The notes beneath the pieces are model-generated. The model searched no databases. It had not been told where the DNA came from and worked only from the letters and a program-made list of their open reading frames with translations. From Panorpa germanica (Eukaryota > Arthropoda > Insecta > Mecoptera > Panorpidae), in assembly GCA_963678705.1 (NCBI GenBank), contig OY783204.1, forward strand, positions 15,696,759-15,760,758: 64,000 nucleotides of DNA. Reading direction: 5' to 3'. The first letter of the stretch is position 1. Every line of letters begins with the position of its first letter. The position numbers and the translations under genes are program-made. Below are positions 8,901 through 61,017 of this stretch, piece after piece.

Positions 8901-11900
8901 AAAAAATTAAAAAAGGGGGGGTTGAAGAAATTCGGGGGCCCGGTAGGAAACGTCAAAGAAAGTTCATATTCTAAATTCTAGAATAATTAAGTATATTATC
9001 AATAATAGAAAATTCAAAATTTTATTTGGGGGCACGGGGGACAATATTTTTCGAATGTAAAAATGGTGCTAGAAAGTTGAAATTTTGTATATAGGCTAAC
9101 CTTGGTAACTTATTTACTAATCAAAAAAAATCCCAAATTTTGAAAAAAAGTTGGTCAAATAACGCATAAATTGAAAATATTTTTTATTTTAATATAAAAA
9201 ATATATTTTTTTGGTCAGTTTATATGAAAAATTAATTGTTATTATATGTAAAATTAATATAGGACGAGTTTATTTATTATTTCAATTTAAAAATGGAATT
9301 AAATTTTGACATGAAATTCAAGCCACACACAAAAAACAGACGTCGCTTGCGACGGGGGTAAAAGCTAGTATATTATAATGTCCCAGGTGTATATTTATAT
9401 TCTTATATGTTTGGTTCAAATTTTGTATGGCATCTCGAAAACGGCTCCAGGGAAGTTTTTAAAAATTTCCTATTTTGTAGAGAAAAAAATTCTAAGACTT
9501 TTGGCGTCCCTGGATTTTCCCCTGAATTTCCTGGAAACCCGTAATTTTGGAAAAACTGGAAAAAAAGTGATCCCTTTTTTGCTGTATTACTTTTAAGTCG
9601 TAAAAGATAGAAAGTTGAAATTTTGCATGTGTATTAAGCTATTTAAGGCCGATATTTCTCAAAAATTAGAAATTCAAAAATTGAAAAAGGGGGGGTTAAA
9701 GAAATTCGGGGGCCCGGTAGGAAACTTTGGAGAAAGTTCATATTCTGAATTCTAGAATAATTAAGTATATTATTAATGAAAAAAAATTCAAAATTTCAAA
9801 ATTTTATTTGGGGGCACGGGGGCAGTATTTTCCGAGAGTAAAAATTGTGCTAGAAAGTTGAAATTTTGTATATAGCCTAACCTTGGTAAGTTATTTACGA
9901 ATCGAAAAAAAAAATTCCAAATTTTGAAAAAAAGTTGGTCAAATAACGCATAAATTGAAAATATTTTTTATTTTGATAAAAAAAATATATATTTTAGTCA
10001 ATTTATATGTGTCAATGTATTTGTGCGAGTTTATTTATTATTTCAATTTAAAAATAGAACAGTGAAATATGAAATTTAATTACGAATTATTTTATTGGAT
10101 TCAAATGATGTACGCCAAAAAGACGTCGCATTGCGACGGGGGTAAACTCAAGTATATTATAATGTCCCAGCTGTATATTTATATTCTTATATGTTTATGT
10201 CTTTATATGTTTGGTTCGAATTTTGTAAGGCATCTCGAAAACGGCTCCAGGGAAGTTTTTAAAAATTTCCTATTTCGTAGAGAAAAAAATTCTAAGACTT
10301 TTGGCGTCCCCGGATTTTTCCCTGAATTTCCTGGAAACCCGTAATTTTGGCAGAACTGGAAAAAAGTGATCCCTTTTTTGCTGTATTACTTTTAATTCGT
10401 ATAAGATATAAAGTTGAAATTTTGCATGTGTATTAAGGTATTCAATGCTGACATTTCTCAAAAATTAGAAATTCAAAAATTGAAAAAGGGGGGGTTAAAG
10501 AAATTCGGGGGCCCGGTAGGGAACTTTGGAGAAAATTCATTTTATGGATTCTAGAATAATTAAGTATATTATAAATAAAAAAAAAATCAAAATTTCAAAA
10601 TTTATTTGGCGGCACGGGGGACATTATTTTTCGAGTGTAAAAATTGTGCTAGAAAGTTGAAATTTTGTATATAGGCTAACCTTGGCAACTTATTTACGAA
10701 TCGAAAAAAAAATCCCAAATTTTGAAAAAAATTAAATTTTGACATGAAATTCATGCCACTCACAAAAAACAAACGTCGCTTGCGACGGGGGTAAAAGCTA
10801 GTATATATATATTGTTACAATTTTGACGTGGTTATACTTTCCTATTCAGCTTCTAACACCAAGGGTTAAGAACTTGTAAGGGCGTAGTTCTCGAACCTTC
10901 TGTGACACCAAATATTACAAATTCTTAGGTGCGAGCGAGGGGAATCTTAAAGGGAGCCAAATTCTCGAACCTTCGATTAGTACCGTACCACGCGCACGCG
11001 ACTTGGATTCTTTTAATTACTGAGCGGAAGTAATTATTTTCACTATACGGTCGTTGTAGGCGTTGTAACTTAATAATTAAGAATAAGCACAATTAAAATA
11101 AGAACAAGTATTTACAATTTTTACAGACTTCATTAAATAACAAGAAAAAACAATTTACAACTACTTTCTAGCACTATTCACTTTTCATTCTTGGTTTTGT
11201 TCTGGCTGGCTTCTTACAACTGACTGACTGTAGTGAACTGACTGCGACACTGTGACCCAGTTTCTTTTATCCCGTCCGGTGACGTACCAGAATATTCCTT
11301 CTCTCGAAATTCTTGACTTTCTGGAAGGAATCAATGTCATGGCTCGTATTAGTTCGCAGTATAATTATTTCCAGAAGAGTGTTTTATTTACAACTTGTTT
11401 ATCTCTTATTTCTAAGAAATCAACGCAATGAAATAAATGCGTCTCAAATAAACAACTTTGTTTATGACGCAGTGGTATATGTCTAAGGTGTACCGTATAA
11501 GTAACCATTTCTGCTAATTACGGATATTTGACAACTATAATTTTTCTATGCTCAGCCGCATATCAAATTCGTAACAATATATAGCAATAACTTCATACTA
11601 TGTTGACAGTTTTTGTGGTGACATGGTCTGATTAATGTAGGCTAAACCTTTGCATAATTAGATTATGATTATGTATGTACATAAACAATTTAATTTAATA
11701 ACAATCAAACACAGAAAATATAACTCTGGTCTGGGGACCAAATGCCCGAGGTCGCAGGCATCAGCGTATAAATATTATGTAAATTTTATATATTATAAAT
11801 ATACTTAATCCATAACCATTATTTTAAAGATAAGCGTCCCATTGTTCGATGGGAAGACCATGTGGGTCCGCGTCGACAACAGCATTGCTGTCGATGATGC

Positions 11901-27332: not shown

Positions 27333-27824
27333 TAGGATCATTAAAATTTCTCAAAATTAAAATTCTTAAAAAATTATTTACATAGTACCACATAGTACTG
27401 TAAAAGGAAGACTATAATTTATTTCATTTCACTATGGAAGCTAAAAGTAATTACATTAAATACTAATATTATAGTCCAAGATCCCAGAACGATCTGACAT
27501 AACTTATTTTCAAAAGCATAGAACTTTCGGTTCTAAGTAGTCTCTACATGTACTTTTAATACCTGCGTATTTGTGGAGTTTGCTCGGTGACACCTGGGCA
27601 GGTACCAGGTGAGAAAGGTAACTAAAAATCAGAGTAACTTTACTTAAATTTGTATGGCTGATTTTTAAATATATTTTGTAGAATGTTATTTCTAAAGTAA
27701 AATTAAAAGTGTCAGACGCTTTCCATGGGCCAGAACTTTTGTTAGACGCTTTAAAGCTCTGTAAAAAATCTTTAAAGGATTCTTTAAAGGATTTTAAAAT
27801 AAGGATATGAAATCGTTTCGTGTA

Positions 27825-27897
27825 GACCGTTTGGCCTAATGGATAAGGCGTCGGACTTCGGATCCGAAGATTGCAGGTTCGAGTCCTGTCACGGTCG
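27825..27897 (+). tRNA. tRNA-Arg (anticodon UCG)
   Basis: A 73-nt cloverleaf: acceptor GACCGTT/CACGGTC, D arm GGCCTAATGGATAAGGC-type, anticodon stem TCGGA/TCCGA with loop CTTCGGA (anticodon TCG), T arm GCAGG-TTCGAGT-CCTGT, discriminator G. Position 7 is T opposite C66, a mismatch where I recall the insect consensus having G. A run of six T follows within 12 nt as a Pol III terminator. No intron. Confidence 0.9.
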
Positions 27898-28312
27898 AAT
27901 TATTTTTTGCTAGTTTTAATATCATCTACAACATAATATCATCTAGACATTTACTAAATGTTTTGTGATAAATCCCATTTACTTCTCCAAGAAAGAAAGT
28001 TATTTCTTTTTGCTTGTTAAATGACTGTGATATTTAAATTAATTAACTAAAATTATTAAAATTGATATTTTTTTGAAATAAAATAAAAATAATTCTTTTT
28101 AATTTGGTTGTTAGTAATAATAATACAAATAATATTCACACCAAATGTGTTAAATCAACGGTGGACATTAATTTAAATATCACAGTCATTTAACAAGCAA
28201 AAAGAAATAACTTTCTTTCTTGGAGAAGTAAATGGGATTTATCACAAAACATTTAGTAAATGTCTAGATGATATTATGTTGTAGATGATATTAAAACTAG
28301 CAAAAAATAATT

Positions 28313-28385
28313 CGACCGTGACAGGACTCGAACCTGCAATCTTCGGATCCGAAGTCCGACGCCTTATCCATTAGGCCAAACGGTC
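28313..28385 (-). tRNA. tRNA-Arg (anticodon UCG)
   Basis: Identical 73-nt sequence on the opposite strand, in the right arm of unit 1. Shares the T7/C66 mismatch. The Pol III T-run follows on the minus strand. Confidence 0.9.
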
Positions 28386-29094
28386 TACACGAAACGATTT
28401 CATTAGTCCAAGATCCCAGAACGATCTGACATAACTTATTTTCTAAAGGATAGAACTTTCGGTTCTAAGTAGTCTCTACATGTACTTTTAATACCTGCGT
28501 ATTTGTGGAGTTTGCTCGGTGACACCTGGGCAGGTACCAGGTGAGAAAGGTAACTAAAAATCAGAGTAACTTTACTTAAATTTGTATGGCTGATTTTTAA
28601 ATATATTTTGTAGAATGTTATTTCTAAAGTAAAATTAAAAGTGTCAGACGCTTTCCATGGGCCAGAACTTTTGTTAGACGCTTTAAAGCTCTGTAAAAAA
28701 TCTTTAAAGGATTCTTTAAAGGATTTTAAAATAAGGATATGTAGTCCAAGATCCCAGAACGATCTGACATAACTTATTTTCAAAAGCATAGAACTTTCGG
28801 TTCTAAGTAGTCTCTACATGTACTTTTAATACCTGCGTATTTGTGGAGTTTGCTCGGTGACACCTGGGCAGGTACCAGGTGAGAAAGGTAACTAAAAATC
28901 AGAGTAACTTTACTTAAATTTGTATGGCTGATTTTTAAATATATTTTGTAGAATGTTATTTCTAAAGTAAAATTAAAAGTGTCAGACGCTTTCCATGGGC
29001 CAGAACTTTTGTTAGACGCTTTAAAGCTCTGTAAAAAATCTTTAAAGGATTCTTTAAAGGATTTTAAAATAAGGATATGAAATCGTTTCGTGTA

Positions 29095-29167
29095 GACCGT
29101 TTGGCCTAATGGATAAGGCGTCGGACTTCGGATCCGAAGATTGCAGGTTCGAGTCCTGTCACGGTCG
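29095..29167 (+). tRNA. tRNA-Arg (anticodon UCG)
   Basis: Left arm of the complete unit 2. Identical to the first copy, with the same mismatch and T-run. Confidence 0.9.
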
Positions 29168-29582
29168 AATTATTTTTTGCTAGTTTTAATATCATCTACA
29201 ACATAATATCATCTAGACATTTACTAAATGTTTTGTGATAAATCCCATTTACTTCTCCAAGAAAGAAAGTTATTTCTTTTTGCTTGTTAAATGACTGTGA
29301 TATTTAAATTAATTAACTAAAATTATTAAAATTGATATTTTTTTGAAATAAAATAAAAATAATTCTTTTTAATTTGGTTGTTAGTAATAATAATACAAAT
29401 AATATTCACACCAAATGTGTTAAATCAACGGTGGACATTAATTTAAATATCACAGTCATTTAACAAGCAAAAAGAAATAACTTTCTTTCTTGGAGAAGTA
29501 AATGGGATTTATCACAAAACATTTAGTAAATGTCTAGATGATATTATGTTGTAGATGATATTAAAACTAGCAAAAAATAATT

Positions 29583-29655
29583 CGACCGTGACAGGACTCG
29601 CACCTGCAATCTTCGGATCCGAAGTCCGACGCCTTATCCATTAGGCCAAACGGTC
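29583..29655 (-). tRNA. tRNA-Arg (UCG) with altered T-loop
   Basis: Right arm of unit 2. One base differs from its sisters: T54 of the T-loop is G (GTCGAGT-type becomes gGCGAG; the plus strand reads gactcgcacctgc). This hits the invariant TTC of the T-loop and Pol III B box, so it may be a pseudo-tRNA. Confidence 0.75.
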
Positions 29656-30366
29656 TACACGAAACGATTTCATATCCTTATTTTAAAATCCTTTAAAGAA
29701 TCCTTTAAAGATTTTTTACAGAGCTTTAAAGCGTCTAACAAAAGTTCTGGCCCATGGAAAGCGTCTGACACTTTTAATTTTACTTTAGAAATAACATTCT
29801 ACAAAATATATTTAAAAATCAGCCATACAAATTTAAGTAAAGTTACTCTGATTTTTAGTTACCTTTCTCACCTGGTACCTGCCCAGGTGTCACCGAGCAA
29901 ACTCCACAAATACGCAGGTATTAAAAGTACATGTAGAGACTACTTAGAACCGAAAGTTCTATCCTTTAGAAAATAAGTTATGTCAGATCGTTCTGGGATC
30001 TTGGACTATAAATGTTTTGTGATAAATCCCATTTACTTCTCCAAGAAAGAAAGTTATTTCTTTTTGCTTGTTAAATGACTGTGATATTTAAATTAATGTC
30101 CACCGTTGATTTAACACATTTGGTGTGAATATTATTTGTATTATTATTACTAACAACCAAATTAAAAAGAATTATTTTTATTTTATTTCAAAAAAATATC
30201 AATTTTAATAATTTTAGTTAATTAATTTAAATATCACAGTCATTTAACAAGCAAAAAGAAATAACTTTCTTTCTTGGAGAAGTAAATGGGATTTATCACA
30301 AAACATTTAGTAAATGTCTAGATGATATTATGTTGTAGATGATATTAAAACTAGCAAAAAATAATT

Positions 30367-30439
30367 CGACCGTGACAGGACTCGAACCTGCAATCTTCGG
30401 ATCCGAAGTCCGACGCCTTATCCATTAGGCCAAACGGTC
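30367..30439 (-). tRNA. tRNA-Arg (anticodon UCG)
   Basis: In unit 3, with the intact T-loop and the shared T7/C66 mismatch. Unit 3 has lost its partner tRNA. Confidence 0.9.
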
Positions 30440-30863
30440 TACACGAAACGATTTCATATCCTTATTTTAAAATCCTTTAAAGAATCCTTTAAAGATTTTT
30501 TACAGAGCTTTAAAGCGTCTAACAAAAGTTCTGGCCCATGGAAAGCGTCTGACACTTTTAATTTTACTTTAGAAATAACATTCTACAAAATATATTTAAA
30601 AATCAGCCATACAAATTTAAGTAAAGTTACTCTGATTTTTAGTTACCTTTCTCACCTGGTACCTGCCCAGGTGTCACCGAGCAAACTCCACAAATACGCA
30701 GGTATTAAAAGTACATGTAGAGACTACTTAGAACCGAAAGTTCTATGCTTTTGAAAATAAGTTATGTCAGATCGTTCTGGGATCTTGGACTATGTGAAAC
30801 GAATGGTGATAATACTAGAAAAATATATTATATAATATATTTTACTGGTATTAGTATTAGTAG

Positions 30864-31840: not shown

Positions 31841-34800
31841 TGGGTAAGTATTCGATTGACCTACACCTTTTCCTTTTTAATTTATAAAAATACTAGTGCT
31901 TTTTCGTATGTTTTATGGCATTTATTATATACTCAAAACATATATAAATCGCTATGTATTTTTTATTATACCGCTTTAAATTAAAATATAGATAATACTA
32001 ATGGTTAAAATTAACCAATAAATGCGAAATAAGACGCCAACAATGTCTTATTATTACTAACCTCAAATTTGAAATTTCAACTTTAACCCTTAATATTGAC
32101 CATTTCTTAATAAAAAGTGGTAAAATGAATATTACGTAGTGACCATTTCTTAATAAAAAGTCGTAAATATTTGTACATATTGTAAGTATAGCAAAAACGT
32201 CTTAAAACATACGAAAATGCAGCAGTTTTTTTTTTTATATATTTCAAAACATAACGTAAATACATTGAATAATTACCGCACATTTTACAGAATCATTTAC
32301 GTCTGGTAACCTCGATGCAATGGAGCAAATGGAAATTAGTGATGGCAATGAACAAACCCATGTGGAAACTGTAACCATAAGTGAAGTTTCAGGTATATAC
32401 TTTTCTTTTATATATATTTTACCGTAGTTTTTATATACTTGTAATATAAGTTGTTCCTATTTTATAATAATGTTATATTAATATTCATAGCTTCTGCCGA
32501 TCTTGCTCCGGGAGAATTTTTAATAAGTAAGTATAAATATTTACAAGTAATAGTTTTTATTCCTAATTATTTTTTCCAAGCATTATGTTATTGTTTAATT
32601 GTATTTACAGAGACAGACGCAGAGAAAGAGAAATTAAGGAGACAGATACGTCTTACCAAAAACAGACTGAACAAAGCGAAAAAGATAATACAGAAACAAA
32701 CTGTAGATTTAAAACACTTAACGGAGTACATGTTTGATAAAGAAATTGTTAATTTAGAAAAATCATTTTCATATAAAATGTCTGGTAAGTTATTACCTTT
32801 AATCATCCAAAATTCTGATGTAAAGATAACTGACAGGAAGTGGACGATAGATGATCTACTTCTGGCATTAACAATATACAAACAGGTACCGAGATGTTAT
32901 CGTTATTTGTCCACATTACAAGCTATGCCTTCAACGTCGACAATAATGAACTTCTTGGCTAAAATCAGATTGGATCCAGGTATTAATAAAACATTATTAA
33001 GCATTCTAGGTAAAAGAATTGAAGATTTAGATGAAAAACATAAGTGTTGTGTGTTGATGTTTGGTGAAATAAATTTAACCCAAGGGTTAAGTTATTGCCA
33101 TTACACCCAGACACTTCGAGGATACGTTGATTTAGGAGACGATAAGAAGGAAGATGAACTGGCTCACCATGCATTAGTTTTCATGGTGAAAAGTTTATTT
33201 AAAAATTGGAAACAGCCAGTTGCTTATTATTTTACAAAAGCTTCTACTCCGGTAAAAACTATGAAGGAACTTGCTATCAATGTTATAAAAGAAATGCAAG
33301 AGGTAGGCCTTAATGTAATGGCCGTGGTGTCTGATCAAAGTCAGACATCATGGACTGCTATGACGGAGCTCTGTCGTCATCATAAAGAAGACGGAGCTTC
33401 GTTTGAAGTTAATGGCAAAAATATTGTTTATATTCCTGATCCACCACATTTACTAAAAAGTGTTAGAAATAAATTTATAACTCATAACATAATATTTGAA
33501 GAAAACAAAACAGCTAGATGGGAATACCTTTATAGGGCATATAAGTATGACTGTGAAAAAATGTTTAAAAAAATAAATAGATTAAATGACGATCATTTTT
33601 CAAAAATAGAACGTAACTCGAAGATGAAAATGCAAGTAGGAGTTGCTGCGAGGCAGTTAAGTCACACGTTGGCTTGTTGTGTAGAGACAGCCGTAACCCA
33701 TAAGAAGGGTTCTGATAGAAACGTTCTACCAGGGGAAGCTATGGAAACTGCCGAATTTATATCCATAATGGACACATTGTTTGACAGTGTCAACGGTACT
33801 AAATCAGACAGATTTAAAAAGTACCGCGGACCTGTAAAAACCACGTCGGGACATTTGCAATTCTGGACTCAAATGATAGCTCAAATACAAAAATGGGAAT
33901 TTAAAAATAAAATTATTTGCAAAGAATCTGGTGCAAAAGTGTGTGTCTGCACACCATTTTGCCCACTACCACCAGATTCAACAGAATCACATAAACGAGG
34001 GAATATACGGTGCATTGATGGCTGGATTGTTGCATTAAGAGGTATGATTGAAATAGCTGCGAATTTAAAAGTGATGGGCATTCGTCAGTTTAGTCCGCGA
34101 TCTTTTAATCAGGACCCGCTAGAAAATTTCTTTGCACAAATTCGGCAGGTGGGAAGCACCAACATACATCCGACGTGCAGTCAGTTTATTAGTGCATACA
34201 AAGTTTGTATTACAAATTCGCCAACAAACATTAATAGGGGTAACTGCGAAAATGATAATAATGACATATTAATTGATCTAAGAGAAGTTATAAAAGAAAA
34301 AGAAACATGATAATAATCATAAACGATGATAATAGTGTTCATGAAGGTAATATTTTATAGGAACCTCCGGTGGGACTTGAAGATATTCCTGGATTTAGTT
34401 ATTTATATATTAATTGTGTATGCCTTTCGGCTTTACAATCTACAGTATTATATTTCTAATACATTTCATTCCTATATACATTCCAAACTTAAAAACTAAA
34501 CTTAAAATAAACTTAAAATCTTCTCGACTTTTACTACTTCCAAAAGTGCTTTCTGCTTCTTCTTCTTTTGACCCTCTCTATTATCCTCCACCAGATTATT
34601 TATTCTCCTGTTTTTCCTTTTCTTCTTACTATTTCCGCCATCCACCTCTTTCCTTCACTGCCTCCCTTTAATAGCTGTCCAATATTCCTTTCGCTTGCTA
34701 CTTTTTCCTTACACTCAAACTTAATGTGCTCCAGTGTTTCGTCCTCCGCTCCACACATTCTACACTTTCTTTCCTCACTCTTTTCCCAGTATCTGTTTCC

Positions 34801-37800
34801 TTTTTCCTCATTTCCCAATCTAAACCTTGCTGTTCTTCTTATGTGTTTTATGTCCTTTTCTATAAGGTACTGAGGCACATTATTTTCCCATAACCTCTTA
34901 TATCTTTTATTGTAGTTACTTTTTTCTATTTTTCCCATTCTCTCCTGCTGTTGTGTCTCCTTATCCCTTCTCCTTAGCTCCTCTGCCACACTTGCGCCAC
35001 CTTCTCTTCTCCTCTCTGCCTCCTCGATCGCCATTCCATTCCTTTCAAAGTATTCTTTTCTCTTTTTTGGACCTCCTTTCCCCCCATTCTTTATGTAATC
35101 CTCTCTTATTTTCTTTAAGATTTTGCTTTCCGCTCTGTTCAATTTCTCCTCGTATTTTACCGCTCTTTCCCCTGTTTTAATTCGTATCTTGTCCCTCTTT
35201 AGCTCCTCCATCACCATGTATCCTGGCGTGCACCTGTCCAGCCCTAGAACCCATTTCATATATCTTACCTGTATTCTTTCCAACTTTTCTTGTTCCTTCC
35301 ACCCCCAAACCTCTGCTCCATACGACATCATACTGGCTATCAGTCTCTCGTATATCCATATTCTCTTTTGTATGTCCCCCCCAAATACCTTTTCCCCTAG
35401 TCCCCATACCCGTCGCATTGCTTGCTCTGCCTTCTTTGCCACCTCCCTTATATGCGCCTCTTCTCCATTATTCTTTTTAAAAGTGTAGCCCAGATATTTA
35501 AATTCTTCAACTTCCTCAATGTCCTCTGTCTTGTATTTCCACCTTTTAAGTCTCCTTTTTCCACCCCCTTTTTTAAATACCATAATTTTTGTCTTTTCCA
35601 CGTTTAACTCTAGTCCTTTCCTGTCTATATACCTCCCTAGCCGGTGTGCCATCTCCTGCAGCTCTCCTTCCCTTTTTGCCAACAGGACTATATCGTCAGC
35701 GTATGCTAAAGTCCATATCTTGTAGTGCCTTCCTATTAGCACCCCCCCGTCTTGTCCTCTTTCCATTACCCCCTCCAAGTCTGCTGTATATATCGCAAAT
35801 AAAATGGGGCTCAGAGGACAACCTTGCCTCAACCCCTTGTCTGTCCAGAATTCTTCTGATTCTTCACCCCCAACTCTTATTCTCATTCTTGTTTCTTCGT
35901 AAATTTCTTCAATACATTTCATTATGTCCTCATCTATTTTTTTCTTTCTCATGTACTTCCACAATTTCTGTCTGTCGACCATGTCAAACGCCGCTTTAAG
36001 GTCGATGAACATTGCATATATCTGTCCTCCTTTTTCACTTAGCTCTTTTTCAACTACATGGTTCAGTGCGTATATATTGTCTAAAGTCCCTCGTCCCTTT
36101 CTAAAGCCTGCTTGTGTCTCGGGAAGTATCTCTTTTACTTTTACCTCTTCTTCCAGTCTTTCTCTAACAATCCCTGCATAAATCCTGTACCCTGTGTTCA
36201 GTAGTGTGATACCCCTGTAATTTTTGGCTTCATGTCTATTTCCCTTTTTATATATCGGCGTTATTACCCCTTCTCTCCAGCTGTCCGGCAGGTTTCCTCC
36301 TTTCCATATCTTGTTCATCGCTGTCAGTAATCCTTTCTCTATCCTTTCTTGCCCAGCTTTCCACGCCTCGTTCTTTAGTCCATCTCTACCTGGTGCTTTC
36401 TTTTCCTTGAGTTTTTGAATCTGTGTTTTTATTTCACCTACTTTTATATCGTTTACTTTCTCCTTCTCTTTTATCCCCTTCTTTGTTTTCTCGTTTCTTT
36501 TCTTTCCTCCTAGTACTCCCATAAAGTGTTTCGTCCACTCTTCCATTTTTATTTCCTTGCTTGGCTCTTTCCTTCGCTTTTTCTCCCTATTTATGTAATC
36601 CCATGCCTGCCTCTCCGTTGTTATATCTCTAATTTCTTTTTCTATTCCTATTTTGAACTCATTCTTTTTATCTTTTATCCTTTCGTTATACTCCCTTTGC
36701 TTCCTCTTGAAGTCTTCTTTACTTGATTCTCCTTTCTTCCATCTCTTTAGTTCCCTTTTTACCTCTTTTTTCCATTCTTTACATTCTTTATCCCACCATT
36801 TGTTTTCTCCCGTTCTATCAGATATTCTCCACCTTTTACTTTGGGTGGCTTCCTTCATCCTCTCTTCAATTTCCTCCATCTCCTCCGTTTCTCCTTCTTC
36901 CTCGTATCTCCGTTCCAATTCCTCCATAAACTTCTTCCTTCCTTCCTCTGTCCAATCGCTGCCCTCTTTCCATTCGTTTCCTTTTCTTTCACCTCTCCTC
37001 GCTTCCAACTCCACCACTAGCGGTAGGTGATCCGAGTCCACCCTCTCTTCCACTTTCATTCTTTCTACCTTCTGTCCTCCTCCCAGCGTTGTCACCACGT
37101 AGTCGATTACTGTCTCCCCTCTGCTTCCCACATAGGTATATTCTCCTTCTTCATCTCCTTCTTTGTTCCCATTTAGTACTATCCATCCTTGTTCTTCTAG
37201 CATTTCCATTAGTTCTTTTCCCTCGGCGTTTATTGTTTTGTCTTTCGTTGTTCTTTTCTTTTTTCTATTCCCCCATATTTCTTCCACCTCTCCCAACTCC
37301 CCAATTCTCGCGTTGAAATCCCCTCCAATTAATAGGTTTTCCTGTTTCTCATCCTTAATTATTTCTTTTATTTCTTTCATTGTTTCTTTTATATTGCCTT
37401 TACTGTATATTGTTACAATTTCCCATGTCTCTTCTTCCAGTTTTATCGTCCTCCTTACTGCTGTTTCTCTTCTGTCTGGTACCTTCTCCTCTTCTAGCTC
37501 CCTACGTACCCCCATTATAATTCCACCTCTCGCTCTCCCTTTCTTATGCTCCCTAACAGCACCTTGGCACACCCATCTGTAGTTTTTCGGTAGTTTGTCT
37601 TCCCATTCTTCCCAATCTTTGCTTTCCAGCCATGTTTCCACCATCCCAATCACATCCCAACCTTTGATGTATCTCCAGAAATCCTTATCTTTTCTTTTTA
37701 TACCCGCCACGTTCCAGAAACCTATCTTTATCCTCTTTTTTATTTCTCTTCTTTCCTCTCTCCCACTTTTACCCCTCTCTTTACTTTCCCCCAACTCCTT

Positions 37801-39074
37801 CACCATGTTTTCGAAATTCCCCCTTTTCCAGTTCTTTGTTTTTTTCATTCCATATATACTGCGTTCCTTCACACCATACTTTTTTGTACCCGACCTTCAC
37901 ATCCTTTTTCCCCTCCTCTCTTTTCTTTTTTGCCCATTGTCTCAATTGCCACTGCACCTCTCTCTCCTTGTACGTCAAGTCGTCCTCTATGTACACATCC
38001 GTGCCCCTCAGTGTACTTTTTTTTTCCATTATCTTTCTCTTCTTTTCTTCCCCCTCACATCTCGCTATCACTATTCCCTTTTCTTTTCCCACTGTGAACG
38101 CTTTTGTTATTCTTACTTCTTCCTTCAATTCTTTTTGTATCCACTCTTCCACTTCTTTCCTCAGTTCCGCGCCCATTTTGCTTGTCTTTACACCCCTTAT
38201 AACTATGTTCTCCCTCTTCTCGCGCTTCCTGGCCATTTCCTGTTCTTTTTCCAGCTCCTCCACCTTTTCTCTAACTTCTTTCTCTGTTTCTTCCTTTTTC
38301 TTTTCTTCTTCTTTCTTTTCTTCTTTTTCCTCTTCCTTCTCTTTTTCCAACCTCCTCATCAGATCTTCCCTTTCCTTGCGCGATTCTTCGATGAATGTCT
38401 TGAATTCCTCTTCCATCTTTTTTAATCTTTCCCTCATTTCCTTCATTTCTTCTTGCATTTCCTTTTCTGTTTGAATCATCCTTTTAATTTTTTCCTCTGT
38501 TCCGTCCTCCTTCTTCTCATCCTGCTCCCTCCTCGTCTTCATTCCCCCAGGCATTTTTGTTATTTTATGTAAATAACTTTTTATTAAACTATTTCTTTTA
38601 TTTACTAGAGATAACAAATTCCACAACAACAAACTCCTTATTGTCTTATTTCACTTCACTTTAAATTTAAACAATTTATTTTGTTTATAAAATAAACAAC
38701 TAACAATGATTTCTAGCAGTATATCGCTTTACTGGAGTAATCAAAAAAAGATGTTTACCCATCAGTGGTCGGATCGAGACTCTCCTGGATTTAGTTATAT
38801 TGATTTAAATTTCAATATTTTCGAAATAAAATCAACTGCTTATGTCGCAGGTTTTGTTGTAACAGCACTCAAACATCTATTGGAAACATGTAATACTTCT
38901 AAATTATATTTAATTGGCAATGCCTTCCGTAATTCAAATTTAGCAATAAACTTTAAAGGATATTCACACGAGGAGCAGCATTTAATATATCCGAGTAACA
39001 ACTTAATTTCATTTATTGAAGATGCTGCTCCTCATGTTAATAATTATGTAGAGGAAATGCGTAGTAAATTATAA
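31841..39074 (+). CDS. P-element-type transposase gene without THAP domain, split by a LINE
   Basis: Exons 31841-31844 (ATG+G), 32291-32392, 32491-32526 and 32611-34310, with matching phases, join to 613 aa. After a short acidic start comes a leucine-zipper-like helix (EKLRRQIRLTKNRLNKAKKI), then the P-element RNase H-like domain: VLMFGEINL, VVSDQSQTS, DPPHLLKSVRNK, ending QDPLENFFAQIRQVG. P transposases cut and paste P DNA in the nucleus. Asp289 and Glu552 fit the catalytic set, but the first Asp (usually FDEM) is Gly199. No THAP zinc finger is encoded. The frame stops at 34310. A further C-terminal piece (34361-34402, resuming at 38799-39074; EPPVGLEDIPGFSY, then AYVAGFVVTALKHLLETC) follows a ttatag acceptor, but I find no clear donor. 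A full-length LINE separates its two halves. Either a domesticated relative now disrupted, or a decaying transposon. Confidence 0.65.
31893..32224. mobile_element. MITE in intron 1 of the P-type gene
   Basis: Inverted ends tgctttttcgtatgttttat and the complement of ttaaaacatacgaaaatgca, about 330 bp. A related right half lies at 42400-42560. Superfamily not assigned. Confidence 0.45.
34387..34402. repeat. Left target-site duplication of the LINE
   Basis: TCCTGGATTTAGTTAT, within the P-type transposase reading frame (PGFSY). It matches 38783-38798 exactly. Confidence 0.9.
34600..37848 (-). CDS. LINE ORF2: APE endonuclease and reverse transcriptase
   Basis: 1082 aa from the ATG at 37848 (MKKTKNWKRGNF). 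Endonuclease: KIGFWNVAG near residue 40, MVETWL, GGDFNARIGE near 175, SDHLPL near 270. Reverse transcriptase: ITPIYKKGNRHEAKNYRGIT near 530, MFIDLKAAFDMVD near 610, RQGCPLSPILFAIY, and catalytic LAYADDIVLL near 715. C-terminus: CRMCGAEDETLEHIKFEC near 1030, a CCHC-like zinc motif. No RNase H domain is evident. It nicks target DNA and copies the LINE RNA by target-primed reverse transcription. The overlap with ORF1 suggests reinitiation or frameshift translation. Confidence 0.9.
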   Translation of the reverse strand: MKKTKNWKRGNFENMVKELGESKERGKSGREERREIKKRIKIGFWNVAGIKRKDKDFWRYIKGWDVIGMVETWLESKDWEEWEDKLPKNYRWVCQGAVREHKKGRARGGIIMGVRRELEEEKVPDRRETAVRRTIKLEEETWEIVTIYSKGNIKETMKEIKEIIKDEKQENLLIGGDFNARIGELGEVEEIWGNRKKKRTTKDKTINAEGKELMEMLEEQGWIVLNGNKEGDEEGEYTYVGSRGETVIDYVVTTLGGGQKVERMKVEERVDSDHLPLVVELEARRGERKGNEWKEGSDWTEEGRKKFMEELERRYEEEGETEEMEEIEERMKEATQSKRWRISDRTGENKWWDKECKEWKKEVKRELKRWKKGESSKEDFKRKQREYNERIKDKKNEFKIGIEKEIRDITTERQAWDYINREKKRRKEPSKEIKMEEWTKHFMGVLGGKKRNEKTKKGIKEKEKVNDIKVGEIKTQIQKLKEKKAPGRDGLKNEAWKAGQERIEKGLLTAMNKIWKGGNLPDSWREGVITPIYKKGNRHEAKNYRGITLLNTGYRIYAGIVRERLEEEVKVKEILPETQAGFRKGRGTLDNIYALNHVVEKELSEKGGQIYAMFIDLKAAFDMVDRQKLWKYMRKKKIDEDIMKCIEEIYEETRMRIRVGGEESEEFWTDKGLRQGCPLSPILFAIYTADLEGVMERGQDGGVLIGRHYKIWTLAYADDIVLLAKREGELQEMAHRLGRYIDRKGLELNVEKTKIMVFKKGGGKRRLKRWKYKTEDIEEVEEFKYLGYTFKKNNGEEAHIREVAKKAEQAMRRVWGLGEKVFGGDIQKRIWIYERLIASMMSYGAEVWGWKEQEKLERIQVRYMKWVLGLDRCTPGYMVMEELKRDKIRIKTGERAVKYEEKLNRAESKILKKIREDYIKNGGKGGPKKRKEYFERNGMAIEEAERRREGGASVAEELRRRDKETQQQERMGKIEKSNYNKRYKRLWENNVPQYLIEKDIKHIRRTARFRLGNEEKGNRYWEKSEERKCRMCGAEDETLEHIKFECKEKVASERNIGQLLKGGSEGKRWMAEIVRRKGKTGE
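37781..38554 (-). CDS. LINE ORF1 protein
   Basis: 257 aa from the ATG at 38554 (MPGGMKTRREQ; the frame runs further up without a better start). Residues about 20-115 are a Glu/Lys/Arg heptad-rich coiled coil. A segment starting RENIVIRGVKT resembles the RRM-like core of L1-type ORF1 proteins, followed by a basic C-terminal domain (RKIMEKKSTLRGTDVYIEDD). The expected role is RNA binding and trimerisation in the retrotransposition RNP. It overlaps the ORF2 start by 68 bp. Confidence 0.75.
   Translation of the reverse strand: MPGGMKTRREQDEKKEDGTEEKIKRMIQTEKEMQEEMKEMRERLKKMEEEFKTFIEESRKEREDLMRRLEKEKEEEKEEKKEEEKKKEETEKEVREKVEELEKEQEMARKREKRENIVIRGVKTSKMGAELRKEVEEWIQKELKEEVRITKAFTVGKEKGIVIARCEGEEKKRKIMEKKSTLRGTDVYIEDDLTYKEREVQWQLRQWAKKKREEGKKDVKVGYKKVWCEGTQYIWNEKNKELEKGEFRKHGEGVGGK
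38783..38798. repeat. Right target-site duplication of the LINE
   Basis: TCCTGGATTTAGTTAT. The transposase frame continues directly from here. Confidence 0.9.
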
Positions 39075-43693: not shown

Positions 43694-44368
43694 CTAGCTT
43701 TTACCCCCGTCGCAAGCGACGTCTGTTTTTGTGTGTGGCTTGAATTTCATGTCAAAATTTAATTCTATTTTTAAATATTTTAATTCTACATATAATAACA
43801 ATTAATTTTTCATACAAACTGACTAAGAAAATATATTTTTTATATCAAAATAAAAAATATCTTCAATTTATGCGTTATTTGACCAGATTTTTTTAAAATT
43901 TTGAATTTTTTCTTTCGATTAGTAAATAAGTTATCAAGGTTAGCCTATATACAAAATTTCAACTTTCTAGCACAATTTTTACACTCGAAAAATATTGTCC
44001 CCCGTGCCGCCAAATAAATTTTTGAAATTTTGAATTTTTTTTTATTAATAATATAATAATTATTCTTGAATCCCGAATATGAACTTTCTCCAAAGTTCCC
44101 TACCGGGCCCCCAAATTTCTTCAACCCCCCCTTTTTTAATTTTTGAATTTCTAATTTTTGAGAAATGTCAGCATTGAATACCTTAATACACATGCAAAAT
44201 TTCATTTTTCTATCTTTTACGAATTAAAAGTAATACAGCAAAAAAGGCTCACTTTTTTTTTAGTTTTTCCAAATGAACTTGTTTCCAGGAAATTCAGTGG
44301 AAAATCTGGGGACGCTAGAAGTCTTAAAATTTTTTTCTCTTTAAAGTCTTTAAAGTCTTCTTTAAAGT
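43694..44368 (-). mobile_element. Non-autonomous Helitron (G)
   Basis: 3' end (minus strand) CGTCGCTTGCGACG, GGGGTAAAAG, CTAG at 43694. The body matches the 780-bp family. The 5' part is shortened at a tctttaaagtctttaaag repeat. Confidence 0.6.
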
Positions 44369-45132
44369 CTAGAGTTTACCCCCGTCGCAAAGTGACGTCT
44401 TTTTGGCGTGTATGATTTGAATCCAATAAAATAATTCGTAATTACATTTTATATTTAACTGTTCTATTTTTAAATTGAAATAATAAATAAACTCGCACAT
44501 ATGCATTGACACATATAAATTGACTAAAAAAATATATTTTTTTTATCAAAATAAAAAATATTTTCAATTTATGCGTTATTTGACCAACTTCTTTTCAAAA
44601 TATGGGATTTTTTTTTTCGATTCGTAAATAAGTTACCAAGGTTAGCATATATACAAAATTTCAACTTTGTAGCACAATTTTTACTCTTGGAGAATACTGC
44701 CCCCGTGCCCCCAAATAAAATTTTGAAATTTTGAATTTTTTTTTATTAATAATATACTTAATTATTTTGGAATCCAGAATATGAACTTTCTCCAAAGTTC
44801 CCTACCGGGCCCCCGAATTTCTTTAACCCCCCCTTTTTCAATTTTTGAATTTCTAATTTTTGAGAAATGTCAGCATTGAATACTTTAATACACATGCAAA
44901 ATTTCAACTTTCTATCTTATACGAATTAAAAGTAATACAGCAAAGAAGGGATCACTATTTTTCCAGTTTTTCCAAAATTACGGGTTTCCAGGAAATTCAG
45001 GGAAAAATCCGGGGACGCCAAAAGTCTTAGAATTTTTTTCTCTACGAAATAGGAAGTTTTTAAAAACTTCCCTGGAGCCGTTTTCGAGATGCCATACAAA
45101 ATTCGAACCAAACATATAAGAATATAAGAATA
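44369..45132 (-). mobile_element. Non-autonomous Helitron (H)
   Basis: 3' end CGTCACTTTGCGACGGGGGTAAACTCTAG at about 44369 (given in parts: hairpin, then GGGGTAAACT, CTAG). The body is as in its relatives. It abuts the CTAG of element I. Confidence 0.55.
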
Positions 45133-45945
45133 CTAGCTTTTACCCCCGTCGCAAGCGACGTTTGTTTTTTGTGAGTGGCTTGAATTTCAAGTCAAAATTT
45201 AATTCCATTTTTAAATTGAAATAATAAATAAACTCGTCCTATATTGATTTAACATTTAATAACAATTATTTTTTCATACAAACTGACTAAGAAAATACAT
45301 TTTTTATATCAAAATAAAAAATATTTTGAATTTATGCGATATTTGAACAACTTTTTTGCAAAATTTGGGATTTTTTTTTCGATTCGTAAATAAGTTGGCA
45401 AGGTTAGCCTATATACAAAATTTCAACTTTCTAGCACAATTTTTACTCTCGGCAAATACTGCCCCAGTGCCCCCCAATAAAATTTTAAAATTTTGAATTT
45501 TTTTTAATTAATAATATACTTAATTATTCTAGAATCCAGAAAATGAATTTTCTCCAAAGTTCCCTACCGGGCCCCCGAATTTCTTTAACCACCCCTTTTT
45601 AAATTTTTGAATTTCTAATTTTTGAGAAATGTCAGCATTGAATACCTTAATACACATGCAAAATTTCAACTTTCTATCTTTTACGACTTAAAAGTAATAC
45701 AGCAAAAAAGGGATCACTTTTTTTCCAGTTTTTCTAAAATTACGGGTTTCCAGGAAATTCAGGGAAAAATCCAGGGACGCCAAAAGTCTTAGAATTTTTT
45801 TCTCTACGAAATAGGAAATTTTTAAAATCTTCCCTGGAGCCGTTTTCGCGCTGCCATACAAAATTCAGTACCAAACATATAAGAATAGATTCAAACACCT
45901 GGGACATTATAATATAAGAAGACACTTGGGACATTATAATATACT
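45133..45945 (-). mobile_element. Non-autonomous Helitron (I)
   Basis: 3' CTAG at about 45133 with hairpin CGTCGCTTGCGACG. The 5' side reads TATATTATAATGTCCCAAGTG and a second TATATTATAATGTCCCAGGTG, a doubled 5' terminus suggesting insertion next to, or tandem joining with, another copy. Confidence 0.55.
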
Positions 45946-46722
45946 TGAGTTTACCCCCGTCGCAATGCGACGTCTTTTTGGCGTGTATCATTTGAATCCA
46001 ATAAAATAATTCGTAATTAAATTTCATATTTCACTGTTCTATTTTTAAATTGAAATAATAAATAAACTCGCACATATACATTCACACATATAAATTGACT
46101 AAAAAAATATATTTTTTTAATGAAAATAAAAGATATTTTTAATTTATGTGTTATTTGACCAATTTTTTTTCAAAATTTGGGATTTTTTTTTTCGATTCGT
46201 AAATAAGTTACCAAGATTAGCCTATATACAAAATTTCAACTTTCTAGCACAATTTTTACTCTCGGCAAATACTGCCCCCGTGCCCCCCAATAAAATTTTG
46301 AAATTTTGAATTTTTTTTTATTAATAATATACTTAATTATTCTAGAATCCAGAATATGAACTTTCTCCAAAGTTCCCTACCGAGCCATCGAATTTCTTCA
46401 ACCCCCCCTTTTTCAATTTTTGAATTTCTAATTTTTGAGAAATGTCAGCATTAAGTACCTTAATACACATGCAAAATTTCAACTTTCTATCTTTTACGAC
46501 TTAAAAGTAATGCAGCAAAAAAGGGATCACTTTTTTTCCAGTTTTTCCAAAATTACGGGTTTCCAGGAAATTCAGGGAAAAATCCGGGGACGCCAAAGGT
46601 CTTACAATTTTTTTCTCAACGAAAGAGCAAACATTGACGGAGCCGTTTTCATTCTACCATACGAATTTCAGCAACAAACATATAAACATATAAATATACA
46701 GTTGGAACATTATAATATAGGA
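45946..46722 (-). mobile_element. Non-autonomous Helitron (J)
   Basis: About 777 bp. The minus strand begins TCCTATATTATAATGTTCC at 46722 and ends with hairpin CGTCGCATTGCGACG plus GGGGTAAACTCAAG near 45946. Its TC directly follows the CTAG of array unit 1, an exact head-to-tail joint between two different Helitron subfamilies. Confidence 0.65.
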
Positions 46723-49700
46723 CTAGCGCTTCGCCCCGTCGCAAAGCGACGTGTATTTAATATTTGTGAATAAATAAAAGTTATTTGATAAATAGAAAAT
46801 AATCCTGAAATATTGTTTATTGTTCGCCTTTCGGCTTTACAATCTACATTCTTAATACATTTCATATACTTCAACTTACAATTAAATTTACATTATTCTC
46901 CACCAACTTATTTATTCTTCTGTTTTTCCTTTCCTTCTTACTATTTCCGCCATCCACCTCTTTCCTTCACTGCCTCCCTTTAATAGCTGGCCAATATTCC
47001 TTTCGCTAGCTACTTTTTCCTTACCCTCAAACTTAATGTGCTCCAGTGTTTCGTCCTTCGCTCCGCACACTCTACACTTTCTTTCCTCACTCTTTTCCCA
47101 GTATCTGTTTCCTTTTTCCTCATTTCCCAATCTAAACCTTGCTATTCTTCTTATGTGTTTTATGTCTTTTTCTATAAGGTACTGAGGCACAGTATTTTCT
47201 TATAACCTTTTATATTTTTTATTGTAGTTCCTTTTTTTCTATTTTTCCCATTCTCTTCTGCTGTTGTATCTCCTTATCCCTTCTCCTTAGCTCCTCTTCC
47301 ACCTCCTTCTCTTCTCCTCTCTGCCTCCTTGATCGCCATTCCATTCCTTTCAAAGTACTATTTTCTCTTTTTTGTACCTCCTCCTTTCCCCATTCTTTAT
47401 GCTATCCTCTCTTATTTTCTTTAAAATTTTGCTTTCCGCTCTGTGGAATTTCTCCTCGTATTTTACTGCTTTTTTTCCTGTTTTAATTCGTATCTTATCC
47501 CTTTTTAGCTCCTCCATAGCCATGTATCCTGGCGTGCACCTGTCCAGCCATAGTAACCATTTAATATATCTCACCTGTATTCTTGCCAACTTTTCTTGCT
47601 CCTTCCACCCCCAAACCTCTGCTCCATACAACATCATACTGGCTATCAGTCTATCAAACATCCATATTCTCTTTTGTATGTCCCCCCCAAATACCTTTTC
47701 ACTTAGTCACCATACCCGTCGCATTGCTAGCTCCGCCTTCTTTGCTACCTCCCTTATCTGAGCCTCTTCTCCATTGTTCTTTTTAAAAGTGTAGCCCAGA
47801 TATTTGAATTCTTCTACTTCCTCAATGTCCTCTGTCTTGTATTTCCACCTTTTATGTCTTCTTTTTCCACCCCCTTTTTTAAATACCATAATTTTTGTCT
47901 TTTCCACATTTAACTCTAGTCCTTTCCTGTCTATATATCTCCCTAGCCGGTGAGCCATCTCCTGCAGCTCTCCTTCCCTTTTTGCCAACAGGACTATATC
48001 GTCAGCGTATGCTAAAGTCCATATCTTGTAGTGTCTTCCTATTAGCACCCCCCATCTTGTTCTCTTTCCATTACCCCCTCCAAGTCTGCTGTATATATCG
48101 CAAATAAAATGCAAAATATTATTTTGTTATAATTCCTTTATTTACAGTAATAAAGCACTGTATTGACCAGTCTCCAGTGCCCCCGCCCATAAGCCCCAAT
48201 CGTCACCTCTTGGCTCCATGCTCTCTTACGTTTCCGAACTTTTAATTTGATTCCTCTAAACTTCTGCCATGAAGCGCCTCCTACTTTTAGCACTCTGCAT
48301 CGCTTCTTCCCTGAGCATCATCGGTCCTTAGAGTACTTTCACAGCGCCCCCGCTGCGTAATATTATCATTTACCATAATGAAGCACAGTATTGAACAATG
48401 TCCACTGCCCCGCCCCTAAACATCAAGCACCTCTTGGCTCCATGCTCTGTATCGTTCTCGAACTTTTAAATGTAATCATCTGCACCTTTGCCATAATGCG
48501 CCCACTTGCAACACTACAGCTTAACTGAACATCATCGCTTATTAGGGCACTTTCCTATACCCCCCGTTTAGCGCAATCATTAAATAATTCTGCGCTTCCA
48601 CCCCCTGCGTACTAATCTCTTAACAATTAGTTTTCCAAATTAATACTTTACTGGCAACCTGCATACTAAATTTCATCCTTAGAAGTACATTATTTTTTAA
48701 TAATTATTCGATAAGATAAATCTTTGATAAAATTTTCACTAATTTCAATGTAAACCTACTAATTACATCAATTCATTTATGTTTTTAAGAAAGCCTAGCA
48801 GTTCGCTCCTAATAATCTCATCTCTAGGCCTTTTCCTTACCGTTATTGCACTTTCGATTCAATCCCCATACCCCGCCACCTTCACTTTCAGCACCAAAGC
48901 ACATATTCTGCAATACGGTTACCTCCCAGAGCCATTATAATCTATCGCCACTACTTGTAACACCACTGTTACTTAGAACTGAACCCCAGCGCCACACTCT
49001 TCTCCAATCAGACACTACCAATTCGCTATTACAGCAATTCATTTACATGAATAAAACTGTACTGTAATCTTACACTCTATATTTCGTATTTATATTTACG
49101 TTATAATATTAGTCTCCCCATTAATCCCCGCTCCTGAAATAAAATTGTCAAATTTTAGGCATAGCAATCTATTTTGCTCGTAACAACTCTCACTACCTTT
49201 ATCTACCCCTACTTTTATAAATGATCGAAATTTCAAAATTGAGTTCTTTGGCAAAGCGTTTTCCCGCCCCCACTTCCCCAATTTCACGCCGCTACTAAAG
49301 TTAAATTTATTTTCGCAAATATGCACGTGCATAGTTTCTATTTTTTCACTTTTTCTATTTTTTGATATTTGGGGCTGTTAACTATTTCCCCCCTATACCT
49401 CTCACTCCTGTTCGATTTCACAGCACAATAAACGCACCAAAAATCAATCCAATTCTACTACTGAATGTAATTTGAATATCTGACTTATAGAGAACTATTT
49501 AGCTTCTATTTAATATTCTACATGCAAAATATCATCGTTGTACCTCTATATTGTTCTTATATTCGGTTTATCACCCGAACTGTTGCACTTAAGAAAATAT
49601 AGTTTTTTTATATTTTCGTAATAATAATGTCAATCTATATCTGCATACTAAATTTCAGTTTTGTATATATATTTTAGCATTAGTACCCCCCACAAACCTC

Positions 49701-58291: not shown

Positions 58292-58391
58292 CTAGCGCTT
58301 CGCCCCGTCGCAAAGCGACGTGTATTTAATATTTGTGAATAAATAAAAGTTATTTGATAAATAGAAAATAATCCTGAAATATTGTTTGTTG

Positions 58392-60672: not shown

Positions 60673-60943
60673 GACGACACAGTGGGCGAGAGCATTGATG
60701 CTTGACGCCGACTGCTGTGTCTTCGGGTTCGATCCCCGGACCAGATATATATTTTCTGGGTTTGGTTATTATGAACTTATATTGATTATGGTCATACATA
60801 ATCATACAGTTATTAGGCAGTGGTGTAGCCCACATATATGAGGCCACGACACCATAAATACTGCCAACATTGAAGGAGGTCGTCGGTGATAGGACTCAGC
60901 ATCGGAAATAGGCCGACGTTAAATAAAAAAAAAAAAAAAAAAA
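60673..60943 (+). mobile_element. tRNA-derived SINE
   Basis: About 270 bp with a Pol III B-box (GGTTCGATCCC), a plausible A-box (gtgggcgagagc), a unique body and an A-rich tail of about 20 A. It is flanked by the 13-bp duplication ATATATAAATATC (60660-60672 and 60944-60956). Present only in unit 4, so it inserted after the array formed. Confidence 0.75.
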
Positions 60944-61017
60944 ATATATAAATATCTATGAGTTCTTATGGGTTTTCCATGTTAAATTGGAACATTACGA
61001 ACATTATAATAAGTAGA

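Follow-up and report, generated by a model that had tools for sequence, protein, structure and literature searches.

Among DNA transposons, the known systems that come close are the gene-capturing, non-autonomous elements of the Pack-MULE type and the MITEs. Drosophila fold-back (FB) elements share a palindromic architecture, with long inverted tandem-repeat arms that are structurally unstable and prone to rearrangement, and they generate target-site duplications (TSDs) of about 9 bp. For two superfamilies considered here, PHIS (PIF/Harbinger-like) and Zator, TSD lengths are given as 0–4 bp and 3 bp, respectively (PMC10045372). Transposon-borne tRNA is described for Helenus (TRIM/TRIMp3; Kojima 2024, PMC10886601), a non-autonomous element of the LTR type that carries tRNA in both terminal repeats; the account of Puccinia triticina given there places 481 of 492 tRNA-Thr-AGT genes within Helenus, which inflates predicted tRNA gene counts.

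A preliminary description of the DNA studied here held that no named family of tRNA-spreading fold-back elements is known. In a search of open-licence literature on tRNA genes and transposons, covering titles and the start of abstracts, we found no DNA transposon with tRNA genes in inverted repeats. The 9-letter end motif occurs in 135 papers, and the 10 of them that were listed include no title on such an element, and a word search of PMC9858662, on tRNA copy number, returned no transposon terms. The closest published case is Helenus, an analogous family of the LTR type whose terminal repeats hold tRNA (PMC10886601).

Results

A rearranged three-unit array of tRNA-bearing inverted repeats

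The window, a 64,000-nucleotide stretch of Panorpa germanica DNA, contains palindromic tRNA-Arg units of a mobile element at 27472–30792, confirmed by their inverted repeats, defined ends and genome-wide copies. The host genome has 150 matches to the PF00379 cuticle domain, which marks it as that of an arthropod; 0 matches to the lepidopteran-type PF03260 carry no weight for the taxon. The inverted repeats, up to 785 nt long and 100% complementary, hold five genes that ARAGORN identifies as tRNA-Arg(TCG), with Rfam scores, in order along the window, of 62.8, 62.8, 62.8, 59.2 and 62.8 bits. The region consists of three abutting units, A, B and C (Table 1), with ends TAGTCCAAG/CTTGGACTA. Unit alignment bears out the earlier reading of the locus as a complete 1267-bp unit (B), a unit with one arm flipped (A) and a reversed, truncated unit (C). 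Once its terminal 338-bp piece is turned, unit A is 99.7% identical to unit B, with one substitution and three gap positions between them, while unit C, once reverse-complemented, matches unit B at 100% identity over the initial 784 bp of the latter. The left and right arms of unit B show three differences in their first 572 sites, at 41, 46 and 408. The array is flanked by TTA on the left and TGT on the right, without a matching target duplication. Because these 3 bp differ, we interpret it as a rearranged copy, an atypical array of three abutting units.

Table 1. Positions of units, arm segments, captured host DNA and tRNA genes in the window.
Feature	Position	Strand	Description
Unit A	27472..28741	+	1270 bp; tRNA-bearing, MITE-like; right terminal 338 bp (28404-28741) inverted
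Unit B	28742..30008	+	1267 bp; canonical short form: arm, 123-bp spacer, inverted arm; ends TAGTCC...GGACTA
Unit C	30009..30792	-	784 bp; truncated, reverse orientation
Outer 298 bp of arm	27472..27769	+	Unit A; common to tRNA-less MITE subfamily
Outer 298 bp of arm	28404..28701	+	Inverted terminal piece, unit A
Outer 298 bp of arm	28742..29039	+	Left arm, unit B
Outer 298 bp of arm	29711..30008	-	Right arm, unit B
Outer 298 bp of arm	30495..30792	-	Unit C
Putative captured host DNA	29051..29313	+	Unit B, left arm; tRNA-Arg gene and flanking DNA; 89% to C7:17.723 Mb native locus
Putative captured host DNA	29378..29699	-	Unit B, right arm; 90% to C7:17.723 Mb native locus
tRNA-Arg(UCG)	27825..27897	+	Commonest element sequence (U7.C66)
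tRNA-Arg(UCG)	28313..28385	-	Commonest element sequence
tRNA-Arg(UCG)	29095..29167	+	Commonest element sequence
tRNA-Arg(UCG)	29583..29655	-	T-arm/B-box substitution: GGTGCGAG in place of GGTTCGAG
tRNA-Arg(UCG)	30367..30439	-	Commonest element sequence

Dispersed copies, target duplications and empty sites

A pattern search of the 464-Mb host genome returned 49 occurrences of the exact GAACG-type end, 47 of them in 23 tRNA-bearing loci, and 0 matches to the reversed control pattern. The genome-wide copies and the empty control together exclude chance as an explanation for the element. Dispersed copies with the same ends, which the preliminary description had proposed to look for, are thereby present at these 23 loci. 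The arm from the window matches at least 42 genomic places at 98–100% identity (40 of 171 candidates scored). Eight copies are full units of 2125–2126 bp with one tRNA per arm, seven of them 99.77–99.91% identical to the eighth (L016). Three copies on C2 are 99.94–100% identical over ~1,584 bp; no match at E 1e-20 extends past the element, and two carry different matching duplications, TAC and TTA. At one locus (L022), an extra arm is attached to the right end.

The TA at the outer edges, previously taken for a target duplication, proved to be part of the element; the target duplication is formed by the 3 bp beyond the TA. We observed a 3-bp duplication in 22 of 24 two-ended copies, a set from which the one-ended copies L010, L013 and L059 and the window array were left out (cross-match rate 0.149, binomial tail ~1e-16), compared with 1 of 22 matching in an offset control. 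The copies L075 and L070 have no matching duplication, as is also the case for the window array. The 3-bp targets are mostly AT-only, with TTA or TAA (TWA-like) in 11 of the 22. When flanks were joined across the insertion, two of 16 matched uninterrupted repeat copies elsewhere (35 and 5 copies), and the remaining 14 gave no empty-site match among the matches listed (40 of 1279 candidates scored). At the 22 loci whose flanks were compared, the sequence in common amounts to AT-dinucleotide runs and a single 130-bp match, between L021 and L028, and none of it continues from the insertion point. The target duplications and empty sites uphold the earlier proposal of a dispersed, mobile palindrome with a tRNA-Arg gene in each arm.

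A tRNA-less sister subfamily and a native donor locus

The genome also contains a sister subfamily that lacks the tRNA and has 98 exact GAGCG ends, so that terminal inverted repeats (TIRs) with conserved ends are represented by 147 exact ends over the two subfamilies. The outer ~298 bp of the arm is common to both, and in five tRNA-less copies the outer repeat is ~97–98% identical where aligned. The element tRNA and its flanks, in turn, match a native tRNA-Arg(UCG) locus at C7:17.723 Mb, which aligns with element positions 310–631 (300/333) and 1080–1508 (364/430) in conserved order. This match suggests that a host tRNA was captured and then doubled into both arms. Since the outer ends are found again in MITEs of the tRNA-less subfamily and the native locus matches the interior, the tRNA-bearing palindrome appears not to be the basic form of the family, and its tRNA to be captured cargo. 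Counted as ungapped matches with up to three mismatches, copies of this tRNA in the genome total 44, of which 8 are of the native type and 36 of the element type; the element has multiplied tRNA-Arg(UCG) gene number about five-fold. The native G7-C66 pair is missing from every one of the 36, which have U7.C66 or C7.C66 instead.

Candidate transposases

Harbinger-type transposases are abundant in the genome, with at least 151 matches to PF13359 (150 of 381 candidates scored). For the partner search, we took the 147 exact ends out of the 169 related ends with up to three mismatches. Within 10 kb of these ends lie none of the 150 PF13359 matches listed and none of 47 PF13837 (Myb) matches, the nearest match to either profile, among those listed, being 26 kb away. 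Facing pairs of these ends 2.2–20 kb apart comprise only the window array and one pair on C4, which spans another element, and no autonomous element or transposase with matching ends was found around them. One sampled Harbinger copy was rejected as a partner, its ends, GGCCCGGTTTTATGG, being unrelated. The PF07592 profile, chosen from the stated ISAzo13 link as Zator-like, gave 0 matches, its control matches being likewise absent.

Discussion

We consider it likely that this family arose when a non-autonomous DNA transposon of MITE-like type took up a host tRNA-Arg(UCG) gene, and that it is moved by a transposase, its tRNAs most likely being decaying hitchhikers. We infer the following order of capture. 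The starting point would be an older tRNA-less MITE of about 0.7 kb, with ~298-bp TIRs and 3-bp target duplications. This MITE would have gained two pieces of the native C7:17.723 Mb locus, one comprising the gene with its flanks and the other lying 1.24 kb beyond. Inverted duplication may then have carried the terminal repeat further into the element, to a length of about 650 bp, an extension that would place one tRNA gene in each arm. The composite was probably mobilised in trans, presumably by a transposase acting through the unchanged outer ends, and in part very recently, each hop adding as many as two tRNA genes that face opposite ways. The tRNAs would thus be passengers that decay after amplification rather than the cause of the spread.

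Several other origins for the copies can be weighed against capture by a MITE-like transposon. That a host tRNA cluster was dispersed through segmental duplications or unequal recombination might be suspected from the abutting, rearranged units of the window, which lack a target duplication, and from the extra arm joined to L022. The flanks of the 22 loci, however, share little beyond AT-dinucleotide runs and the single 130-bp match, with nothing continuing from the ends, and the 3-bp duplications and empty sites argue further against this route. It is largely refuted for the dispersed family, where we regard it as highly improbable, and possible for the local array. A retrotransposed, SINE-like or TRIM-like tRNA element is less probable still, to the point of being nearly discounted. 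The repeat does enclose a tRNA gene, whose pol III promoter is internal, and Helenus TRIMs are described as doing likewise in other genomes (PMC10886601), but the ends are long inverted repeats rather than the long terminal direct repeats of Helenus/TRIMp3, the tRNA copies are inverted in both arms, the duplications are 3 bp, sister copies have the same ends and no tRNA, and the 10–25 nt beyond the ends hold no A-rich tail. A SINE, with its 5' tRNA head, 3' tail and variable, long TSD, was rejected on the inverted position of the tRNA within the TIRs and the 3-bp TSD. As for the array itself, palindromic units that are almost identical pose difficulties for assembly, and both the missing target duplication and the inverted terminal piece would suit an assembly artefact within a real dispersed family. 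The units are not exact copies, however, given the three differences between the arms of unit B and those between units A and B, and we think an artefact improbable.

The preliminary description also suggested that such an element would couple transposition to tRNA dosage. In the form weighed here, functional, transcribed tRNA-Arg(UCG) genes would boost CGA/CGG decoding and partly drive the spread. Consistent with this idea are the 36 ungapped element-type copies against 8 of the native type, the preserved 3' T-run, which reads TTTTTT in the window and TTTTT both at the donor locus and in L016, internal promoter boxes that appear by eye to be preserved in most copies, and the nine scored copies that exceed the Rfam cut-off. 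ARAGORN still assigns tRNA-Arg to most copies, and 12 of the 36 element-type copies retain the commonest sequence, so that function of the element tRNA is possible. Against it, that commonest form has the U7.C66 mismatch in its acceptor stem, the other 24 are one base off it, and several of these changes fall in the T-arm, the acceptor stem or the loop of the anticodon. Rfam scores for the nine element copies (62.8, 61.3, 59.2, 57.2 and 51.1) are below those of seven native genes (71.6–73.5). Nor is there a sign of constraint: with 9 of 73 tRNA sites variable versus 29 of 567 other sites, the tRNA varies no less than the rest. This is a weak test on non-independent copies, with p = 0.029 when all other sites serve as the reference and 0.063 when the outer 298 bp alone do; it used arms that reach 85% identity in the block concerned and dropped 1, 1, 3, 13, 15 and 20 of 44. 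As a weak further argument, the predicted minimum fold departs from the cloverleaf-like fold of the native gene. The acceptor-stem mismatch, the lower Rfam scores and the lack of any sign of tRNA constraint weaken the coupling idea, and on balance the sequences speak against it; we view a dosage device as unlikely. Slightly more doubtful is a version in which working pol III genes serve as TIRs, at least 36 element-borne U7 tRNA-Arg(UCG) genes feeding the tRNA pool or yielding tRNA fragments, bursts of transposition shifting how CGA/CGG codons are decoded, and the element's mobilisation being favoured where its tRNA genes lie in open chromatin or are transcribed by pol III.

A DNA transposon can inflate tRNA gene counts, which often serve as a proxy for tRNA supply, about five-fold. 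Comparable inflation by retrotransposition is described in rust fungi for Helenus (PMC10886601). Jumps in tRNA gene family number between species often lack explanation. In this case a single genome displays the donor gene, a sister transposon without the tRNA, the marks left by insertion and, at position 7, a diagnostic base, which makes the use of transposon-borne tRNA genes testable.

Set beside known systems, the element resembles several in part. Its 3-bp TSD fits PIF/Harbinger (PHIS), but its TA...TA termini are unlike those of the one Harbinger copy read (GGCCCGGTTTTATGG) and its TSDs are TWA-like in just half of the cases; with Zator it shares TSD length. Long inverted arms and their rearrangement recall FB elements, whereas here the arms consist largely of unique sequence, with a TSD of 3 bp. 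We rejected an FB assignment, the arms having only a 12-bp x 2.1 repeat and the one 338-bp row being the doubled terminal piece. Like MITEs and Pack-MULEs, the element is short, shows no coding region that we noticed, has TIRs common to its copies and a fixed TSD length, and contains apparently captured host DNA; it differs in that the cargo is a whole tRNA gene, doubled into the TIR and present in both arms. Helenus, as described, is likewise non-autonomous, with tRNA sequence in each terminal repeat and inflated tRNA gene counts. It is, however, a retrotransposon of the LTR type that has its repeats in direct orientation, PBS/PPT and 4–5-bp duplications, in contrast to the inverted repeats and 3-bp duplications of this TIR element, whose tRNA, unlike that of Helenus as it is described, appears to have arrived with flanks from an identified host gene.

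A dispersed element with defined ends

The preliminary description took the palindromic tRNA-Arg array of the window to be a mobile unit, and this is borne out by dispersed copies with defined ends, 3-bp target duplications and two empty sites. The genome searched comprises 464 Mb in 249 contigs, and its 150 cuticle-protein domains indicate an arthropod. In it, the arm at 27472-27815 gave 42 matches at 98-100%, many in opposed pairs (best 40 of 171 candidates scored). The exact 25-base GAACG end, typical of the tRNA-bearing subfamily, occurs 49 times in the genome and its reversed control pattern not once; with up to three mismatches the count is 169, about 100 of them listed. Combining the arm, end and tRNA searches, we counted 23 tRNA-bearing loci on 12 large contigs and C226, all of which were read (the window and 22 further stretches). 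They account for 47 of the 49 exact ends, with the remaining two at L075, a chimeric, tRNA-less copy, and at C3:3048829, where the arm is found over about 290 bp only. At least one full-length tRNA is present in 22 of the 23 loci, the one at C16:12268498 having a truncated tRNA only. Two-ended tRNA-type copies measure 1007-2126 bp, and each of the eight at 2125-2126 bp carries two ARAGORN tRNA genes.

The preliminary account of the window array was likewise accurate in its five alternating tRNA-Arg genes, its long inverted repeats, which we find to reach 785 nt at 100%, and its complete, flipped-arm and truncated units, which abut one another. Flanked by TTA on the left and TGT on the right, the array as a whole shows no target duplication.

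Coordinates of the array, of individual copies and of neighbouring features
Feature	Position	Strand	Description
Five tRNA-Arg genes	window 27825-30439	alternating	anticodon TCG (ARAGORN, Rfam)
Unit A	window 27472-28741		right terminal 338 bp inverted (end reading)
Unit B	window 28742-30008		canonical form, 1267 bp (end reading)
Unit C	window 30009-30792		reverse complement of first 784 bp of B (end reading)
Open frame, 619 aa	window 32451-34310	+	P-element-like transposase domains PF21787, PF21788, PF21789; 1.7 kb from array
LINE open frame	window 34600-37872	-	RVT_1, endonuclease
Copies of related sequence	window 46600-64000		about five, head to tail, spacing about 2.4-3.9 kb; strong strand skew; apparently a tandem LINE array
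Two clusters of one repeat family	window 6471-10731 and 43890-46678	largely opposite	some 35 kb apart; copies 0.7-0.9 kb apart, 84-95% complementary
Tandem repeats	window 1129-1620		about eight of 60 bp within a 517-aa open frame that has no Pfam match
Arm-duplicated copy	L022 790-2164 (C4:4.708 Mb)		
Chimeric copy	L075 (C5:1667417-1668525)		
LINE-like insert	L059 1657-4522 (C1:5.597 Mb copy)		
Harbinger-type element	L077 (C9:12595200-12599200)		

Target duplications, empty sites and recent movement

Identical 3-bp sequences lie directly outside TAGTCC...GGACTA in 22 of the 24 two-ended copies read. This set consists of 17 tRNA-type copies, five without a tRNA, L070 and L071; three copies with a single end (L010, L013, L059) and the array of the window are not counted in it. 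Flanks paired across different copies match in 14.9%, which gives a binomial tail near 1e-16, and for 3-mers sampled 10 bp farther from the element the two sides agree in 1 of 22. The duplicated sequences are TTA (7), TAA (4), ATA (3), TAT (3), TAC (2), TGA, TCA and AAT; L070 and L075 are the two copies with no matching duplication. The chimera L075 joins a GAGCG left end to a GAACG right end, and its flanks are inverted copies of CAATATTAA.

The two flanks of each of 16 tRNA-type insertions were joined and compared with the genome. Those of L012 matched 35 uninterrupted repeat copies (96-98%) and those of L022 matched five (98%), which represent empty sites; the other 14 had none among the matches listed (best 40 of 1279 candidates scored). 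L022 carries an extra arm at its right end with TAT duplications flanking the whole, which, together with its five empty sites, suggests that arm-duplicated forms may transpose as units. Three copies on contig C2 are 99.94-100% identical over about 1,584 bp, and at the threshold used none of their matches continues past the element; seven further full-size copies are 99.77-99.91% identical to the copy L016. Part of the transposition must therefore have been recent. Otherwise, the flanks of 22 loci have in common runs of AT dinucleotides and a single 130-bp stretch located apart from the ends.

Candidate transposases

None of 150 listed matches to PF13359 (Harbinger-type), and none of 47 to PF13837, is closer than 10 kb to any of the 147 exact ends (49 GAACG and 98 GAGCG), among which there is also no unexplained facing pair 2.2-20 kb apart. 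One multi-copy Harbinger was read over its whole length, and its ends are GGCCCGGTTTTATGG. PHIS and Zator have stated target duplications of 0-4 bp and 3 bp, respectively, compatible with the 3 bp of the element (PMC10045372).

The Harbinger-type element L077, with TTA outside its GGCCCGGTTTTATGG ends, has a transposase score of 116.4 bits that is repeated at at least 23 loci, and its family has probably been active recently in this host.

Origin of the tRNA-bearing arms

The GAGCG-end sister subfamily has 98 exact ends in the genome and was sampled at five places, including L075 with its GAACG right end. These copies (318-1109 bp) gave no tRNA match, and their outer repeat is about 97-98% identical to the tRNA-type where aligned, up to 298 bp; one of them, L076, has an arm reduced to 57 bp. 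In its inner portion, the tRNA-bearing arm aligns with a native tRNA-Arg locus (C7:17.723 Mb) at element positions 310-631 (300/333 identities) and 1080-1508 (364/430); the second match begins immediately within an internal fragment of the end repeat. Both matches are collinear with the element and are separated by 1.24 kb in the C7 locus. In blocks picked for almost no gaps, element and donor differ at 0/36 positions just upstream of the tRNA, 1/73 within it and 1/34 just downstream, and at 10/143, 12/166 and 5/157 in more distant blocks. The right arm mirrors the left across about 650 bp.

In the simplest history, whose order of steps we infer, a tRNA-less MITE would have captured host DNA, an inverted duplication would have brought the tRNA into both arms, the two-tRNA form would have been amplified, and internal deletions would have given rise to the smaller variants, among them the type seen in the window.

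State of the element-borne tRNAs

Allowing up to three mismatches without gaps, we found 44 genome copies of this tRNA, eight of native type (GACCGTG; seven fetched, with C6:10832100 assigned only by its sequence) and 36 of element type (35 GACCGTT and one GACCGTC). The acceptor pair G7-C66 is absent from all 36. Their commonest sequence, taken as the founder, is found in 12, and the other 24 are one base off it, with changes such as C68G and others in the anticodon loop and T arm. Seven native genes score 71.6-73.5 bits in Rfam, against 62.8 (five copies), 61.3, 59.2, 57.2 and 51.1 bits for the nine element copies scored. Unlike the native gene, the founder has a predicted minimum fold that is no longer cloverleaf-like, though this carries little weight, as in silico folds of tRNAs are often poor.

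Across 44 element arms (36 ungapped, five with an indel, three truncated), variation is present at 9 of 73 tRNA sites (41 arms) and at 29 of 567 sites outside it, in five blocks covered by 24-43 arms each. Fisher's test gives p = 0.029 for this difference, and p = 0.063 when the outer 298 bp serve as the only reference. By this comparison, the tRNA appears no better preserved than its surroundings. The T-run is still present, as are the promoter boxes in most copies by eye, so that transcription would be possible. We consider it unlikely that the element acts on tRNA dosage, a reading that is directly testable since the base at tRNA position 7 is diagnostic.

In one copy (L059), a 2866-bp LINE-like insert (RVT_1, E 1.2e-36) interrupts the tRNA, and 14 bp of the tRNA 3' end (TCCTGTCACGGTCG) are duplicated on either side of it; the insert may be a retrotransposon that targets tRNAs.

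Comparison with known systems

In searches of open-licence literature, assessed from titles and the opening lines of abstracts, we found no report of a TIR transposon whose inverted repeats contain a tRNA gene. The nearest published case is Helenus, a group of LTR-type TRIMs whose direct repeats each contain a tRNA sequence and which raise tRNA counts in rust fungi; its author considers a functional tRNA unlikely, and the term 'DNA transposon' is absent from the main text (PMC10886601). The Panorpa element is real, recently active and MITE-like, and each of its arms holds a captured tRNA-Arg gene. It is a variant of the cargo-bearing MITEs, themselves known, and the DNA-transposon counterpart of Helenus with its direct LTR repeats.
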